From contig NZ_JAQQTG010000006.1 of the NCBI RefSeq assembly GCF_028561335.1, forward strand, positions 62,317-126,316: 64,000 bases of DNA, given 5' to 3'. The position numbers and the translations under genes are program-made. The stretch is from Aequorivita todarodis. Lineage in GTDB: Bacteria; Bacteroidota; Bacteroidia; Flavobacteriales; Flavobacteriaceae. Below are positions 18,839-24,993 of this stretch, piece by piece. The number at the start of each line of letters is the position of its first letter. Position 1 is the first letter of the stretch. The notes below the pieces were generated by a model. The model was given only the letters and a program-made list of their open reading frames with translations, was not told the DNA's origin and searched no databases.

Positions 18839-20212
18839 CTAATCCTTTATGCAACGGCACGATGCAAAATCCGTAACGGGCATAGATCCGCGCAAAAGCG
18901 TTTCATCATCTATCCGAAATATATAGACTATGGCCTCGTTATCTTCATGCGGCTTTTTTCGGGTAATGCTCCAATAATAACCTATTCTATTGTAGTCATA
19001 AAAATAAAAGTTATCCGTGTTATAAATTCTTTTCCCGGCCAAGGCTCCCTTAAAATTTGTGGTACCTCCTTTCACAAGGGCTTTAAACGATTCCTTGCCA
19101 CTTTTTTCGCCAGTGTTCAGATCGCCCGCAGCACCGCCATAGGCGCGCGTCAATCTTTTCCAGTCAAAATCGTTTGGCAGTCTCCATCCGTCGCCCAATT
19201 TTTTACACGCTTCTATGGCGTCCCGAAAAGTATAAAGAGCCCCATTTTCCTTACAATTAAAGGGATCATTGCCGTAGCAAATGGCGTTAGCCGTTTTTAC
19301 ATCTACATTTTTTGCGGTCCATATCTGCCCTTCAATGGTAATGGTTTCGATACTTGGTTTAACGTCTTCATTAATTACTGTACTGCTGGTTGTCGCCTTC
19401 TCGTTGGTTTTGTCCTTTGTATTTCTTGTTGGATCCGTATCGGTGGCAGCGGTCCCTGTTGTTTGGATTTCGGGAGTATTTCCCTTTTCCGCTTGCAGTG
19501 AATCTGTTGGGACTTCAGCGGTTTTATTCTCAGAATTCTTATCAGCGTTATCTATTGAGGTAGAAAAAAATGCCACCAGCGATACTATAATCCCAATGCC
19601 CACGATAGCTCCAACTAATAGTGGCCAGCGGGTTTTTACCTTCTTTTTTGATTTCTGGGGATTTTGGATGTTTTGGGAAGCTATTGGGCTCTGTTTTTCA
19701 CTTTCAGACAAGGTTTTCCCGGGGCCTACGCTTGTAAATGTTTTGGGTCCAGGTGCTTCTGTCTTTCCCTTTTTTGCTTCGGGCGGGTTTTCCGTGGCAA
19801 CATCTGCCAATTTTAAAGCCACGGTATTATCTAAGTTCAGCGCTTTTATAAGTGTTTCAACGCCTATTTTATGGTCTTTTGAAAAATCGGCATACTGCAA
19901 CCTTCGCAGCCTGAAAGGAATGTCGCACTCTTCCAATAATACGGGAACAACCGTTTTTTGTTCTTCCAAAGCATAGGAAACTTCGTCCATTACATTGTGT
20001 GATTTTACCGAAGCGCAAGAAAGTATGACCAAAAGGGTCTGTGATGCTTCCAGCGCTTTTTCAATGGAACTGTCCCAGCGATTGCCAGGCTTTATGTCCA
20101 ATTGGTCCAACCAAATGTTTGCTCCGGCTTTCCGAAGGTTTTTGGCCAGATTGAGAACAAATTCTGAATCTGATCTGGAATAACTAAAAAAAATAGTGTT
20201 TGCTGAAGCCAT
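18839..20212 (-). CDS. TIR domain - transmembrane - FISUMP domain protein
   Basis: 457 residues in three parts. An N-terminal TIR domain (about 3-125) begins IFFSYSRSDSEFVLNLAKNL and has IWLDQLDIKPGNRWDSSIEKAL and LLVILSCASVKS; Glu77 in VMDEVSYAL lies where NAD-cleaving TIR domains keep their catalytic Glu. A charged linker leads to one membrane helix (about 196-216), then a Thr/Ser/Asp-rich spacer, then a C-terminal FISUMP (Fibrobacter succinogenes major paralogous) domain (about 291-456) starting IEGQIWTAKNVDV with GWRLPNDFDWKRL and ending ASCRCIKD. There is no signal peptide, so the TIR is probably cytoplasmic and the FISUMP domain outside. It is the last gene of a four-gene operon with caspase and TPR proteins. 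A role in signalling or abortive defence is inference. Confidence 0.85.
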   Translation of the reverse strand: MASANTIFFSYSRSDSEFVLNLAKNLRKAGANIWLDQLDIKPGNRWDSSIEKALEASQTLLVILSCASVKSHNVMDEVSYALEEQKTVVPVLLEECDIPFRLRRLQYADFSKDHKIGVETLIKALNLDNTVALKLADVATENPPEAKKGKTEAPGPKTFTSVGPGKTLSESEKQSPIASQNIQNPQKSKKKVKTRWPLLVGAIVGIGIIVSLVAFFSTSIDNADKNSENKTAEVPTDSLQAEKGNTPEIQTTGTAATDTDPTRNTKDKTNEKATTSSTVINEDVKPSIETITIEGQIWTAKNVDVKTANAICYGNDPFNCKENGALYTFRDAIEACKKLGDGWRLPNDFDWKRLTRAYGGAAGDLNTGEKSGKESFKALVKGGTTNFKGALAGKRIYNTDNFYFYDYNRIGYYWSITRKKPHEDNEAIVYIFRIDDETLLRGSMPVTDFASCRCIKD

Positions 20213-20262
20213 TTTATAAATTGTTTAATTGTTTCTTTTTTGGCGTTCGGGGCTTCGTTATT

Positions 20263-20487
20263 TTAGTCACATAGCATATAGGTTTTCTCGAATATTTCCC
20301 TATCACAGGCGTATTTTTCACCGTTCACGCCAATCATTAGCCAGTCGCCCGCCTTCCCTTTCATCGTTCCCTCCATTGTCTCGACTTCAAAGGGTTCGTC
20401 AATTTGGACACATTTTATGGCGATGGGTTTTTTCTTGGCCGTCCTAAAATCCAACTCGGGATTTTCATTTTGAAGAAATTTCAGCAT
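20263..20487 (-). CDS. Small PGDYG-like protein
   Basis: A 74-residue acidic soluble protein with no signal peptide or membrane helix. The central KKKPIAIKCVQIDEPFEVET followed by GKAGDWLMIGVNGEKYACDREIFEKTY resembles the PGDYG domain, a small conserved domain of unknown function in which a (P/K)xGD(Y/W) turn recurs. It lies 21 bases after the caspase gene stop and 50 bases before the TIR gene start, all on the minus strand, so it is likely cotranscribed. It could be a regulatory partner; nothing in the sequence proves a function. Confidence 0.65.
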   Translation of the reverse strand: MLKFLQNENPELDFRTAKKKPIAIKCVQIDEPFEVETMEGTMKGKAGDWLMIGVNGEKYACDREIFEKTYMLCD

Positions 20488-20508
20488 ACCGTTTATTTTT
20501 GAATCAAA

Positions 20509-22740
20509 TTACGATAAAAAATTAGTTCTTAGAAATTTAATAAACGGATCTTCGGGATTGTTGGTCTGCATTAAGCTCACGTAAGCATTGTAGGCATTGG
20601 AATGTATTGAAATCTTTTCGCGCAAGCCCGCCATTTTTGCCGCTCTTTTATAATTGTCCTTTGCGTTTTCAAATTCGCCTTTATAAAGAAATGCCTCGCC
20701 CAAAGTTGCAAGTTTCCAAAGACTCGGGAACGGATCCTTTGCCGTGGCTTCGTAGGCTTTGTCTGCATACGAGGCCATAGGACCCCGTTCTCCTTTCATC
20801 AAACTGAGAAAGGCCAGATTGATGGCGTGATAATATATTTGGGAATAATCATTTTTCGTTTCAGCAATTTTTAGGGCATCGCCGTAGTGTTTCAGTGCCA
20901 TTCGGAGGTCTTCCGCCGAAAATGTCTTTAAATATTGGCGCTTATACCTCCCTCCCATTATTCCCAATAAGTTCGAATTGTCCTTTGCCTCTGGGTGCCC
21001 ATTTAAAATTTTCATCGCCTCCACTTCCTTGCCCACACCTTCCAACGCATAAATCAGTTGTTCCAAACCCTTACCGTCAAGGGTTTTCAGCTTGGGAAGT
21101 AGCGATTTTATAACGGCATTGTATTCTCCCAATGCAATATTAACCTCCTCCGCATTCGAAAAAGTATTTAAAAACCCCTTGTTCGTCAAGGTTTTCAAAA
21201 GCAATTGGTAGCTATCGTCATTCGCATCGTCAATCTGGACTAGAGAAAAATGGTCTGCTTCTACAATCTCCTGAAATTCCTTCGGAAATGGGTCCAAGCT
21301 CGAAGATGTGGGAACGTATTTGTCTTTCGTGGCCGCAACGGTCTTAAAAGTGAAAGGATATCCGTTTTGAAACTTCCTGTCCCAATTATCCCTAAGCCTT
21401 TGCATATACGGACTTCGTTCTTTTAGTTCCTTTTCATCATTTCCGTAAGTGAAAAAGTTTTTTAGTTCAATTTCGGGCAGGCCGTTGCTCGGTGTTCCAA
21501 AGAAAAGTACGTGGCTGATTCTATCCAAATCTGCTGTTTCCAATTCCAATAGAGCCTGTTGCGCAACGATCCCTCCCAAATCGTGTGCAACAATGGCAAT
21601 GCGCTTGTATTTGGAAAACTTGTTTTTGATTGAAGTGAGCAAAAAATCTGAATTGCGCTTAATGTCACTGGCACAGGCCCAAATGTTCTTCCCCATTTCT
21701 GGCACTACATTGCCGCTGTACCCTAACGGAAACATATCCCAACCGTCCATTTCTTCATTGGCCATTAGCAATTTCGGTGCTTCGGAAAAGGTGTTTTCGG
21801 CATCTCCGGAAAAACCGTGCACAAAAAGAATCGCACTGTTGGAGTTCTCGGTTTCCCTAAATTTTGTAACCGGTTCTTTTTTAATGGTTTCAGCAGCCTC
21901 TGCTATAGTTTCAATTTCATCATCAGCACCATTTTTTTCTAACAATTTCGGAGCAAAACTCACCACAAAATCCTCAAATATCTGAAGGTTTGCATACGGA
22001 TTTTGGTCTGGATATATTTCGGGTACTTTCTTAAATAAGTATTGAACTACTTCAAAAATACGGACAAATGGGTCTTCGTCTTCACGTTTACTGTCTCCTC
22101 TTAAAACTTCAATCATACATTTGGTAAAAAGGCTGTTCTCCTCCCCTTCCAAAACAACGCTCAACTGTTCCGCTCGGCAGGCGGAAACGATGGTCATTCC
22201 GCGGCCATCATCTATGTTTTGCGCAAGGCCGTCCGCATTGGTATGTTTGGGCTGCGGTCCTGAAACGCCGGCGGTCATTCCCGCGGCGTGGCAACAGTCC
22301 AAGAAGAAGATCAATCTTCTGGATTTTAACTGTGAAAGCTTATATTTTATCTCTTCGGCTTTTATCCAAGTGGTTTTGTAATTATTTGGATCGTAATCAT
22401 ACGGGCAGAGGTGAAAATATTTTTGGTTTTCTGCCTCTGGTTTCTTCTTTGCCTCGTCCTTTATAAAGGTATTATCGCTATACATTCCGCCATGACCGGA
22501 ATAAAAGAGCAATACGGAAGCGTTTTCATCGGTGTTCTCAAGCAAATCGTCAAAGGCTTTGAGGATGCCTTTGCGCGTTGCTTTTTTGCCCGTAAGGAGT
22601 TTCAGGTTTGATTTATAATAACTGCCCGTTTCCTTATTGCCCAATATCTCGTATAAGGCTTTGGCATCGTTCACGGTCTCCGGTAAATCCTCACTGCCTA
22701 CCCCAATTAGTAGTGCATGGGCGTTCTTTAGCTTTGCCAT
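20509..22740 (-). CDS. Caspase-like protease fused to alpha/beta hydrolase and TPR/TRAFs-binding region
   Basis: 743 residues, no signal peptide. (1) Peptidase C14/caspase domain, about 5-265: catalytic His83 in YSGHGG and Cys150 in FFLDCCHAAGM. (2) Alpha/beta hydrolase domain, about 300-520: AILFVHGFSGDAENTF, then IAIVAHDLGGIVAQQAL where the nucleophile elbow has Asp387 instead of Ser, and a plausible catalytic His497 in EADHFSL. (3) Helical C-terminal region, about 530-743, with LGIMGGRYKRQYL and TPR-like helices, resembling the DUF4071/TRAFs-binding repeat region. Bacterial caspase-like proteins are often parts of conflict or cell-death systems. It is the second gene of the minus-strand operon, 38 bases after the TPR membrane protein. 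Confidence 0.88.
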   Translation of the reverse strand: MAKLKNAHALLIGVGSEDLPETVNDAKALYEILGNKETGSYYKSNLKLLTGKKATRKGILKAFDDLLENTDENASVLLFYSGHGGMYSDNTFIKDEAKKKPEAENQKYFHLCPYDYDPNNYKTTWIKAEEIKYKLSQLKSRRLIFFLDCCHAAGMTAGVSGPQPKHTNADGLAQNIDDGRGMTIVSACRAEQLSVVLEGEENSLFTKCMIEVLRGDSKREDEDPFVRIFEVVQYLFKKVPEIYPDQNPYANLQIFEDFVVSFAPKLLEKNGADDEIETIAEAAETIKKEPVTKFRETENSNSAILFVHGFSGDAENTFSEAPKLLMANEEMDGWDMFPLGYSGNVVPEMGKNIWACASDIKRNSDFLLTSIKNKFSKYKRIAIVAHDLGGIVAQQALLELETADLDRISHVLFFGTPSNGLPEIELKNFFTYGNDEKELKERSPYMQRLRDNWDRKFQNGYPFTFKTVAATKDKYVPTSSSLDPFPKEFQEIVEADHFSLVQIDDANDDSYQLLLKTLTNKGFLNTFSNAEEVNIALGEYNAVIKSLLPKLKTLDGKGLEQLIYALEGVGKEVEAMKILNGHPEAKDNSNLLGIMGGRYKRQYLKTFSAEDLRMALKHYGDALKIAETKNDYSQIYYHAINLAFLSLMKGERGPMASYADKAYEATAKDPFPSLWKLATLGEAFLYKGEFENAKDNYKRAAKMAGLREKISIHSNAYNAYVSLMQTNNPEDPFIKFLRTNFLS

Positions 22741-22778
22741 TTTCTTGTTTTACTTAAAGTTTGAAGGGATAAAAAAAA

Positions 22779-24752
22779 TTATTTCCAAAAATTCAGGATT
22801 TCTTCAAACTCTTTCGATTTCGTATAATCTTTGAATTGGGGGTCGTTCTTAAAAAATTTCCAATGATACAAGTGTCCACTGGCTGCGGCTTTCAACAAAT
22901 GTTTATATAGTTCAGGTTTATTATCGGTTGCGGCGTAATATTGGCCAAGGGCATAATCCACTTCCCCGAATTGGTAATCTGCACGTAAGTTTTCCAAAGC
23001 AAGAATGGCCTTTTCTGCTTCGGAAATAGTTCCGGTTTTAAAATTACTGATGGCCAATTTTGCCAAAACCTCAATATTATCGGGTTCTTTAAGGTGAATC
23101 TCTTTTAAAGCTTTCTTCGCCCGGGCATACGCTTCCTTGTAAAACAAAGCATTCGCAAGCATTTTTGGATCCAAAGTTTCTTCCTTGGAATTGATTATCA
23201 TATCGAAAAATTCATTGGCCTTTGGCCTGTCGCCCTTCAGCAAAAACTCTTTTCCCGCCTGTAGATAAAGTTCTTGAGCTTCCGCCGGGCTTGCCGTAAT
23301 TTCAATTTTTCTCATAAATTGGTCCAGCGCCTCCATTTTGTTTCCCCGAACATAGGCTATGGCCAATGGCCTGTTCAATAATTTGGCTTCATCTTCCTTC
23401 TGTGCCTTTTCAATATTTTGAATTGCGGTTTCATACTTGCCCAATTCAATATCGGCGAACGCTTTCACATAAATGCGCTGGACGCAATAGACACAATTTT
23501 GCAGGCTCATACTGTCCATATTGACGGTTTTATATATGGCCCCCACATCTTCCGGTCTGTTGACGAACTGTAGGGCAATAACCATTGCGGTTTTATTTGT
23601 TATTAAATCGAAAGGAGCTATTTCGTATTCCTTTAATATTGTTTTATAGGCTATTCGATTGTCGCCTTTTAAAAGAGCTTCATACATGTTCAGCAAATTC
23701 AGTTGCCGCTTGTTTGAGTAGGAATCTGGTTTTATAAGATTTAACAGGGAATCTGCCTTTTTAAATTCCTTTTGATTGTAATAATGGGCAACGCGAAGCA
23801 CTTTTGGCTCAAAATAGTTGGAATCTGCCGCTATGGCCTTATTAAGTAGTTCTATGTATTCTTTGTTGTCATTGCTGTTGCTGTACTTGGCCTCAAGCAG
23901 GTATTTATAGGCTTCATATTTGGGTGGTATTTCTTGGAGCATCAGCCCTTTTTTGTCTTCCGTTATAAAATATCCGGTGATGGATTCGTTAAGATCTTCG
24001 ATGCACTGCAGGGGGTTTTCCGTGGCACATTCCGATGGTTTAAAGGAGATGAGGGTTTTGTTGGTTTTTCCGTCGGTAATCATTCCCTGGAAAAGCATTT
24101 TTCCGTTTTGGAGATAAAAATTTCCCGAAATGATTTTGCTGGGTTTCAGATACTTCTTGACTATCGTGCTTTCGTCATCATCGGTGCTTTTTCCCTTTAG
24201 ACTGGTTTTATAGTCATCAATTAAATCTTGGGTGATTACCTGTGCCACCTGGTTTTCGGTAATTCCATGGATTATCCAGTCTGAAGCCATTTTGCTGACA
24301 ATGTCATATTTTGGATCGCCGGTATTGTTGCCAAATCTTAACACAGCAATTTTATCGCTTTTTACTATTTTCGGAAGGGTTTCATCATTTTCTTGGGAAA
24401 AATTTTTGTTGACAATCAAAAAGACGGCGATTACGCAAAGCGAAGTAATGATCCCCAAAAAAGAAAAGTACATTTTCTGGAATGCTGTTTTTTTCTTTTG
24501 GCCTTTTTCATCATCGTCAATTTCAGCCTTTTGCATAGGGACGATTTTAAATTTCCAAAGGGAAAAGATGTAAATCGGAAAGCAGAGAAGCAAGACAATG
24601 ATAAGAAAGGCAACAGACTTGTGCGGAAGCCCCAAAGGCTGCCACGTTACTGATAGTACCTGCAGGATCACCCAAGAAGATACCACATATATTGACAGCA
24701 TTTTAAAGACTTCCTTTTCGTGGCATTGCTTAAAAAAGGAATTAAGCTTCAT
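22779..24752 (-). CDS. Membrane-anchored TolB-N-like / TPR protein
   Basis: 657 residues. The N-terminus (about 1-70) has FFKQCHEKEVFKMLSIYVVSSWVILQV and two membrane helices (about 19-36 and 46-65), matching the FFxELKRRNVFRVA-type module found at the front of many class III adenylate cyclase and TPR regulators. A third helix lies at about 96-115. Next comes a domain (about 132-265) beginning KIAVLRFGNNTGDPKYDIVSKMASDWI, like the IAVLPFxNxTGD region of TolB-N-like proteins. The rest (about 265-657) is TPR-like helices. No cyclase, kinase or DNA-binding domain is present. It is the first gene of the operon with the caspase and TIR genes and is a candidate sensor or scaffold. Confidence 0.8.
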   Translation of the reverse strand: MKLNSFFKQCHEKEVFKMLSIYVVSSWVILQVLSVTWQPLGLPHKSVAFLIIVLLLCFPIYIFSLWKFKIVPMQKAEIDDDEKGQKKKTAFQKMYFSFLGIITSLCVIAVFLIVNKNFSQENDETLPKIVKSDKIAVLRFGNNTGDPKYDIVSKMASDWIIHGITENQVAQVITQDLIDDYKTSLKGKSTDDDESTIVKKYLKPSKIISGNFYLQNGKMLFQGMITDGKTNKTLISFKPSECATENPLQCIEDLNESITGYFITEDKKGLMLQEIPPKYEAYKYLLEAKYSNSNDNKEYIELLNKAIAADSNYFEPKVLRVAHYYNQKEFKKADSLLNLIKPDSYSNKRQLNLLNMYEALLKGDNRIAYKTILKEYEIAPFDLITNKTAMVIALQFVNRPEDVGAIYKTVNMDSMSLQNCVYCVQRIYVKAFADIELGKYETAIQNIEKAQKEDEAKLLNRPLAIAYVRGNKMEALDQFMRKIEITASPAEAQELYLQAGKEFLLKGDRPKANEFFDMIINSKEETLDPKMLANALFYKEAYARAKKALKEIHLKEPDNIEVLAKLAISNFKTGTISEAEKAILALENLRADYQFGEVDYALGQYYAATDNKPELYKHLLKAAASGHLYHWKFFKNDPQFKDYTKSKEFEEILNFWK

Positions 24753-24879: not shown

Positions 24880-24993
24880 ATGCCAACACCACCTAAAAAG
24901 AAGCCCGCTGCTCCAGCAAAACCCGCTAAACCAGCAGCGAAACCGAAACCAAAGGTAAAACCAAAACCAGGAGCGGATATTAATCCCGGTTAA
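24880..24993 (+). CDS. Tiny Lys/Pro/Ala-rich basic peptide
   Basis: A 37-codon ORF, MPTPPKKKPAAPAKPAKP continuing with AAKPKPKVKPKPG and ending ADINPG. It is composed almost entirely of Pro, Lys and Ala, like histone H1-type or DNA-binding tails, and has no Cys or aromatic residue. Support for a real gene: an ATG with a TATCTTTA element 36 bases upstream, strict use of Pro/Lys/Ala codons, and a good terminator 31 bases after its stop. It is divergent from the TPR/caspase/TIR operon. Function unknown. Confidence 0.55.
   Translation: MPTPPKKKPAAPAKPAKPAAKPKPKVKPKPGADINPG

Follow-up and report, generated by a model that had tools for sequence, protein, structure and literature searches.

A putative two-module locus of a caspase-hydrolase and a TIR protein, membrane-linked by prediction, in Aequorivita and related Flavobacteriaceae

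Introduction

Why a caspase-type protease and a TIR protein should stand in one gene cluster, together with a membrane protein and two small genes, is the question raised by a locus in a 64,000-nt stretch of Aequorivita (Flavobacteriaceae) DNA, the whole of which is referred to below as the window. Caspases and TIRs are among the best-known death enzymes common to animals and bacteria; to our knowledge, the triggers and substrates of bacterial caspases are largely open. The best reading of the locus, tentative and with close to an even chance of being right, is that of a two-module, membrane-linked conflict or cell-death operon. The genetic link between the caspase and a short repeat peptide rich in Lys offers a concrete candidate substrate. 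The PGDYG family occurs in hundreds of phages; its link to TIR genes, seen here in bacteria of one phylum and in phages of another, gives a testable role to a family without assigned function in the libraries searched. A literature search over titles and abstract starts of open papers (the type IV Thoeris paper discussed below lies outside this scope) found no description of the gene set, no use of the word PGDYG and no mention of FISUMP together with TIR.

Organization of the locus

The core of the locus consists of four minus-strand open reading frames (ORFs) of 657, 743, 74 and 457 residues, separated by gaps of 38, 21 and 50 nt, exactly as an earlier note on this DNA had given them. A divergent peptide gene, and an additional gene present in relatives, were missed there. 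In a simple hydropathy scan the first product had three transmembrane segments (TMs), the last had one, and the two between had none. MoxR, vWA and FtsH were not matched by any of the four proteins in the Pfam scan.

The first gene (22779..24752, minus strand) encodes a TPR membrane protein, here TPRM. Its TPRs were recognized by Pfam, and its structure model (pLDDT 85) shows three long N-terminal helices, an alpha/beta domain (residues 134-270) and an array of TPR-type helices (residues 279-655); the best 50 PDB matches in a structure search were TPR or other helical-repeat proteins. The earlier note had called this product a TolB-N-like TPR membrane protein. The TPR and membrane parts of that description stand; the TolB-N likeness is one of strand and helix pattern only, with no Pfam match to TolB. 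Judged from the helix count and the Lys-rich loops, the C-terminal part is predicted to be periplasmic. At locus L064 and the matching places in other Aequorivita genomes, side-by-side pairs of proteins of about 585-595 residues have the N-terminal plan of TPRM; these are ordinary paralogues, with about 25% identity to TPRM over its first ~325 residues.

Regarding the other three products, the earlier note had named a caspase/hydrolase/TPR protein with a His/Cys dyad, a 74-residue PGDYG-like protein and a TIR-TM-FISUMP protein with a conserved Glu77, and the domains so named were recovered by Pfam. The second gene (20509..22740, minus strand) encodes the caspase protein, with Peptidase_C14 at residues 8-241 (7.8e-19), an alpha/beta-hydrolase of the DUF676 type at 304-429 (4.7e-5) and TPR-S at 540-645 (3e-13). 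His83 and Cys149/Cys150 are invariant (24/24), so that the protein has, by its sequence, the dyad expected of an active C14 caspase. At the place of the hydrolase nucleophile, Ser was found in the six outgroup copies examined, Asp (Asp387) in 17 Aequorivita copies and Gly in one (genome G002), with Asp473 and His497 invariant. With its nucleophile replaced, the Aequorivita hydrolase would have changed its chemistry or become a non-enzyme; the caspase dyad was kept. The model for EACC1-associated caspases (NF047832) gave 71.6 bits, below its curated cut-off of 140.

The third gene (20263..20487, minus strand; small74) encodes the PGDYG protein, which scored 27.0 bits to PGDYG (PF14083), exactly the curated cut-off of 27.0; the motifs GD[WY] and IF..TY are conserved in the alignment of its family. 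The fourth gene (18839..20212, minus strand) encodes the TIR protein, with TIR_2 at residues 7-121 (5.7e-29), a TM at 198-216 and Fib_succ_major (FISUMP) at 293-456 (1.2e-15). Of 41 relatives, at least 90% conserve Glu77, and the protein therefore retains the catalytic Glu expected of a NAD-cleaving TIR, as far as sequence can indicate. The predicted topology places the TIR domain in the cytoplasm and the FISUMP domain in the periplasm.

A divergent Lys-rich peptide gene

The peptide gene (24880..24993, plus strand), recognized as an ORF and by the repeat/KPG tests, starts 127 nt from the TPRM start and encodes a 37-residue Lys/Pro/Ala-rich peptide ending in KPGADINPG. By the repeat/KPG test, such a gene lies beside 58/63 TPRM genes versus 19/668 control genes. 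By composition (ATG start, at least 25 residues, more than 50% K/P/G/A), 41 ORFs lie divergent from TPRM at a distance of 60-300 nt, where 0.04 are expected, versus 6 elsewhere in 1.015 Mb. Examples had been seen before either test was set, and 13 of the 63 TPRM genes are from Aequorivita. The peptide start lies 100-138 nt from TPRM in 52 of the 58 cases, and the length is 36-151 residues, with one peptide of 296.

An exact tandem repeat of a unit of 7-15 residues (e.g., KPGVSINPKK, SIKPTGKPG, EGPGLTSK) was found in 35/58 peptides, with K-x-G inside the unit in 32 of these 35; Aequorivita peptides keep what looks like a single unit at the C-terminus. Over all peptides, K-x-G is present in 56/58 and occurs 248 times, versus a mean of 100 (maximum 122) after shuffling. 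Six repeat copies at L128 and fourteen at L173 are identical as protein and differ at synonymous sites, which indicates that the protein sequence of the peptide is selected at these loci. The motif KPGxxIxP was absent from the eight TPRM-less loci scanned, orphan PGDYG-TIR loci included, and the peptide thus goes with the caspase module. Characterised C14 proteases other than animal caspases are described as preferring Lys or Arg at P1 (PMC5756287). This preference, taken with the Lys-rich, K-x-G composition, leads to the proposal that the peptide is plausibly a substrate or decoy of the caspase.

Conservation in the family and phylum

A scan of GTDB genomes yielded at least 78 loci, and a profile cut of 850 retained 12 Aequorivita caspases and 43 others. 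Counts over these loci, here and below, are among the matches listed. By automatic count, TPRM lies upstream of the caspase in 51/53 loci with enough upstream sequence (12/12 Aequorivita, 39/41 others); the two exceptions are L189, where TPRM overlaps, and L130, which is without TPRM. After the TPRM-caspase pair, 39 of the 40 readable loci of other genera have the PGDYG gene and/or a same-strand TIR gene (PGDYG 34, TIR 28, both 23, neither 1), and the gap between caspase and PGDYG gene is mostly 2-26 nt. The earlier proposal of a conflict or programmed-death system gains from this layout, which is conserved across flavobacterial genera, and from conflict-type neighbours described below; it loses from the separability of the halves within Aequorivita. 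Regarding the possibility, raised in the same place, that the genes would mostly be found apart in relatives, this is not the case at family level, while within the genus the halves are apart in 10/28 genomes.

A gene for a protein of 166-208 residues lies between TPRM and caspase in 21/39 non-Aequorivita pairs among the matches listed (e.g., L136:7461-7991) and is absent from Aequorivita, window included. By hydropathy, its product has one TM in 19/21 cases, two in one and none in one; the copies scanned were matched by no model in Pfam, NCBIfam or PADLOC.

Of 397 family genomes sampled evenly, 33 have a full-length caspase, 40 have TPRM and 30 have both (overlap counted by hand); with 30 of the 33 caspase genomes also having TPRM, the association is more than chance. 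Among 395 genomes of the phylum there were 16 matches at E <= 1e-20, with full-length ones in the same family only (2, window included). Two loci from another family of the phylum (L223, L225) encode hydrolase-TPR-S proteins without caspase, followed by a conserved 'FV[IL]MPFG' gene, and at L223 a weak TIR-like gene (21.6 bits) precedes the hydrolase-TPR-S gene.

Distribution within Aequorivita

A full-length caspase is present in 18/28 Aequorivita genomes, with a TPRM gene upstream in all 18. The pair adjoins the same TerC gene in 17 of these; in G002 it lies at another site. A defence-island setting, as looked for on the strength of the earlier note, does not hold in Aequorivita with its TerC site, but in some other genera the locus adjoins nSTAND, SLATT or patatin genes. 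Downstream of the pair, nine of the 18 congeners have the PGDYG gene and TIR (two TIRs in G027), two have the PGDYG gene only, six have neither, and in G007 the contig ends.

The ten congeners without caspase have distant TPRM paralogues or none. At the same site, read in all of them but G019, three (G020, G008, G026) have the PGDYG gene and TIR, G021 has the PGDYG gene alone, and five have neither, including G017, whose contig ends just past TerC. Genome-wide searches agree with these site readings, with the PGDYG gene in 15/28 congeners and, at E below 1e-20, close TIR relatives in 12/28. The last 23 residues of a caspase are preserved adjoining the PGDYG gene in G020 (E 3e-5), which indicates that the pair was lost there through deletion.

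Orphan TIR genes gave ratios of nonsynonymous to synonymous substitution (dN/dS) of 0.06, 0.14 and 0.18 in three comparisons, an orphan PGDYG gene 0.065 (one comparison) and lone caspases 0.04 and 0.08 (two comparisons); 4/17 dN/dS comparisons were saturated or failed. Orphan halves are therefore under purifying selection where measured, and the two halves appear to be separately useful.

The TIR protein and its variable slot

Regarding the TIR relatives, a TM follows the TIR domain in 40/40 scanned by hydropathy, and FISUMP occurs in 1/41, the window protein. The outside part of the others often reads as another beta-rich domain, SH3-like by eye and not named by Pfam; at L051 a separate downstream gene bears such a beta-rich end. 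In two pairs measured, dN/dS was 0.33 in the ectodomain versus 0.06 in the TIR domain and 0.14 versus 0.06, the ectodomain being faster. Animal Toll-like receptors have an outside domain (leucine-rich repeats), one TM and an inside TIR. The Aequorivita protein shares this plan, a likeness of plan only: its TIR is N-terminal, which reverses the order, and on the outside it has FISUMP or a different beta-rich domain in place of leucine-rich repeats.

At loci of Algibacter, Leeuwenhoekiella and Croceivirga, identity to the window is 73-75% for the TIR domain and 50-54% for the caspase; in 5/6 congeners it is 41-45% for the TIR domain and 77-80% for the caspase. This reversal points to exchange in the effector slot or to an ancestral tandem pair of which different members were lost. 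Where TIR is not the next gene after the PGDYG gene, Pfam identified nSTAND1, TIR and SLATT at L145, a patatin phospholipase at L154, and a second caspase with a CHAT/hydrolase/TPR-S protein at L151, all of them typical of conflict systems. Similar neighbours, judged by eye only, were seen at L153, L163, L167, L173 and L189; a peptidoglycan-binding gene comes after the PGDYG gene at L144, and no conflict-type gene was seen at L141 or L159.

The PGDYG protein and its phage relatives

The PGDYG protein matches phrog_419 (2.5e-14) and 469 of 50,697 phage records. Its small beta-rich model (pLDDT 90) gave six structure matches at E <= 0.001, all predicted viral proteins, several of them named PGDYG; no solved structure was matched at E <= 0.001. 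Among the phage matches listed, the lowest E-values were those of Staphylococcus phages 187, X2 and WIS42 and of Streptococcus phages Javan616 and Javan282. In these five the PGDYG gene is convergent with two genes, which Pfam identified in 187, WIS42, Javan616 and Javan282 as ThsB_TIR and DUF4231/SLATT. In 50 viral loci found via the phage-187 protein, TIR lies within 1.5 kb in 26, SLATT in 26 and both in 25; TIR farther away than 1.5 kb was not found in 658 kb of all 68 viral loci. Eight viral loci at 60-73% identity keep the pairing of PGDYG with TIR; others within that range lack it. Together, the viral adjacency and the bacterial pair make a functional link between PGDYG and TIR plausible, if not proven.

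The cassette of PGDYG, TIR and SLATT (L237, L231, L227, L239, L240-L274) adjoins an integrase or repressor gene in temperate phages of Staphylococcus and Streptococcus and may be a defence unit carried by prophages. At L290:3567-4360, on a viral contig, a Tad2-like (Thoeris anti-defence) gene recognized by Pfam overlaps the start of the PGDYG gene; on another viral contig (L289:2405-2902), a gene related to this Tad2-like one is found close to a PGDYG gene. In Flavobacterium phage 11b, phiARI0746 and phiEf11 (L228, L233, L236) the PGDYG gene is in the head module, between a minor head gene (Mu-F-type in 11b and phiARI0746) and a protease or scaffold gene.

The phage protein Nip, with two predicted SH3-like domains, is described as binding and inhibiting the TIR NADase SpbK (PMC11984713). 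The SpbK/YonE/Nip system, as far as that account covers it, resembles the present locus in joining a TIR NADase to an SH3-like phage protein that binds and inhibits the TIR domain. It differs in that Nip has 279 residues and is a phage-encoded counter-defence (PMC11984713), whereas the PGDYG protein has 74 residues and belongs to a bacterial operon. The PGDYG protein may be an inhibitor of its TIR, as Nip is for SpbK, or else an activator or decoy.

Interpretation

In the two-module operon that we tentatively prefer, the first module would comprise TPRM, the cytosolic caspase-hydrolase-TPR-S protein and the divergent Lys-rich peptide, with the extra small membrane protein in about half of the pairs from other genera; the second would pair the PGDYG protein with a TIR of the inner membrane whose predicted periplasmic domain is exchangeable. 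The periplasmic part of TPRM, the TIR ectodomain or both would perceive an envelope event, upon which the complex would cluster. The caspase, held near the membrane, would cut at lysines. The multi-lysine peptide, acting as a substrate or decoy dedicated to this caspase, would define a threshold or free a signal. In parallel, the TIR, restrained by the PGDYG protein, would consume NAD+, and the outcome would be death or arrest of the infected or damaged cell. Of this picture, the gene content, its conservation and modularity, the purifying selection where measured, the peptide gene and the adjacency of PGDYG and TIR rest on observation; topology, trigger, the peptide as substrate, control of the TIR by PGDYG, death as the result and an antiviral purpose are inferred. 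A more specific version, in its entirety rather unlikely, combines a membrane-sensed caspase under its own multi-lysine repeat peptide with a TIR receptor that is interchangeable and has, as its antidote or trigger, a PGDYG protein domesticated from phages; if true, PGDYG proteins would partner TIR enzymes in temperate phages as well as in bacteria.

Parts of this picture are seen in the EACC1-caspase and VMAP/MoxR ternary systems of Kaur et al. 2020 (PMC7159879), whose account includes membrane-linked caspases, pairing with alpha/beta-hydrolases, variable effectors and, in some systems, a dedicated small peptide gene cut by the protease. In the window, by contrast, caspase and hydrolase are fused, and the peptide is a Lys-rich repeat and not of the FxSxx, RXD or acidic kind (PMC7159879). 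For the upstream gene with a one-TM EACC1 domain, the only candidate is the 166-208-residue gene of other genera, mostly with one TM but without a family match in the copies scanned; the window lacks it.

Several results weigh against this interpretation. The halves are apart in 10/28 congeners (six with the pair only, three with PGDYG and TIR only, one with PGDYG alone; G007 is a possible further case), so that a single death pathway of caspase plus TIR is not required and the one operon may be mere neighbourhood. The Aequorivita site is stable, chromosomal and set between housekeeping genes, unlike many mobile defence systems, and the viral contig search found no caspase on viral contigs. 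Regarding the peptide, 23/58 lack an exact repeat of seven residues or more, Aequorivita peptides among them, and three have units without K-x-G (L160, and L165 twice); the true partner of the peptide could be TPRM, RNA or DNA rather than the caspase, processing and binding both being guesses. Regarding the PGDYG protein, TIR occurs without it in 5/40 loci of other genera, which means that it is not a universal TIR antidote. It is also preserved without a same-strand TIR in 11/40 loci of other genera, and by itself at L112, and this points to a role beyond this TIR. Its SH3-like character is a weak call, from weak SH3-type matches of the beta-rich model. None of the 18 viral loci found via the bacterial PGDYG profile had TIR or SLATT nearby. 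Among the viral TIR neighbours, 18/26 (L240-L258) come from one Staphylococcus phage's close relatives or near kin (72-100% identical to the query).

Type IV Thoeris, in which the TIR product N7-cADPR is described as activating a caspase-like protease (PMC12847820), suggests a cascade in which infection would cause the TIR to make a cyclic ADP-ribose signal that the caspase protein binds through TPR-S before it kills, the other genes being accessories; we regard this as unlikely here. The logic of the published system is matched in that a TIR enzyme and a caspase-type protease share an operon and both catalytic centres, the conserved Glu and the dyad, are apparently intact, and at L223, in a different lineage of the phylum, a hydrolase-TPR-S protein adjoins a TIR-like gene (TIR match at only 21.6 bits). 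By that published account (PMC12847820), the window differs in its membrane-anchored TIR with a predicted periplasmic domain, in a caspase that carries a hydrolase and TPR-S, in the added TPRM, PGDYG protein and Lys-rich peptide, and in the enzymes being kept separately in several genomes. The pairing of TIR and caspase is not obligate: six congeners have the caspase without a close TIR relative, and three, as well as G065 from another genus, have TIR without caspase, the frames being intact in both groups. The caspase protein has no demonstrated nucleotide pocket, and its putative partner is membrane-bound. Thoeris models match weakly: the window TIR reached 19.4 bits with ThsB_TIR (cut-off 21.2) and 26 bits with ThcB4 (cut-off 220), although PADLOC-DB of 2023 may not include type IV.

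No more probable is a regulatory role in envelope stress or development, without antiviral purpose, in which the TPR sensor would control a protease that processes the Lys-rich peptide, and the TIR part would be separate cargo. The stable chromosomal site beside TerC, the ordinary paralogues built like the N-terminal part of TPRM, and the lack of caspases in viral contigs all agree with such a role. Closer to conflict biology are the patchy presence (18/28 congeners, 33/397 family genomes), the different TIR types at one place, and the nSTAND1, SLATT, patatin and second-caspase genes adjoining at other loci. That a caspase system and a PGDYG-TIR system merely share a favoured insertion site, with no joint function, is the least probable reading and very doubtful: independent loss within Aequorivita, a PGDYG-TIR pair that occupies this TerC site by itself in another genus (G065, L221) and phage PGDYG genes with TIR and no caspase speak for it, but the order caspase, PGDYG, TIR persists with gaps of a few nt across many genera (both parts in 23/40 loci among the matches listed), a spacing not expected from chance neighbourhood.

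Other observations

At L031:3869-4829, in a metagenome-assembled genome (G013), the adjoining TerC gene is split into two overlapping frames, possibly by a sequencing error or as a broken gene. Seven loci (L171, L172, L174-L176, L181 and L186) encode a shorter caspase (457-469 residues) with a longer TPRM (about 690-699 residues); this version of the pair appears to be either older or reduced.

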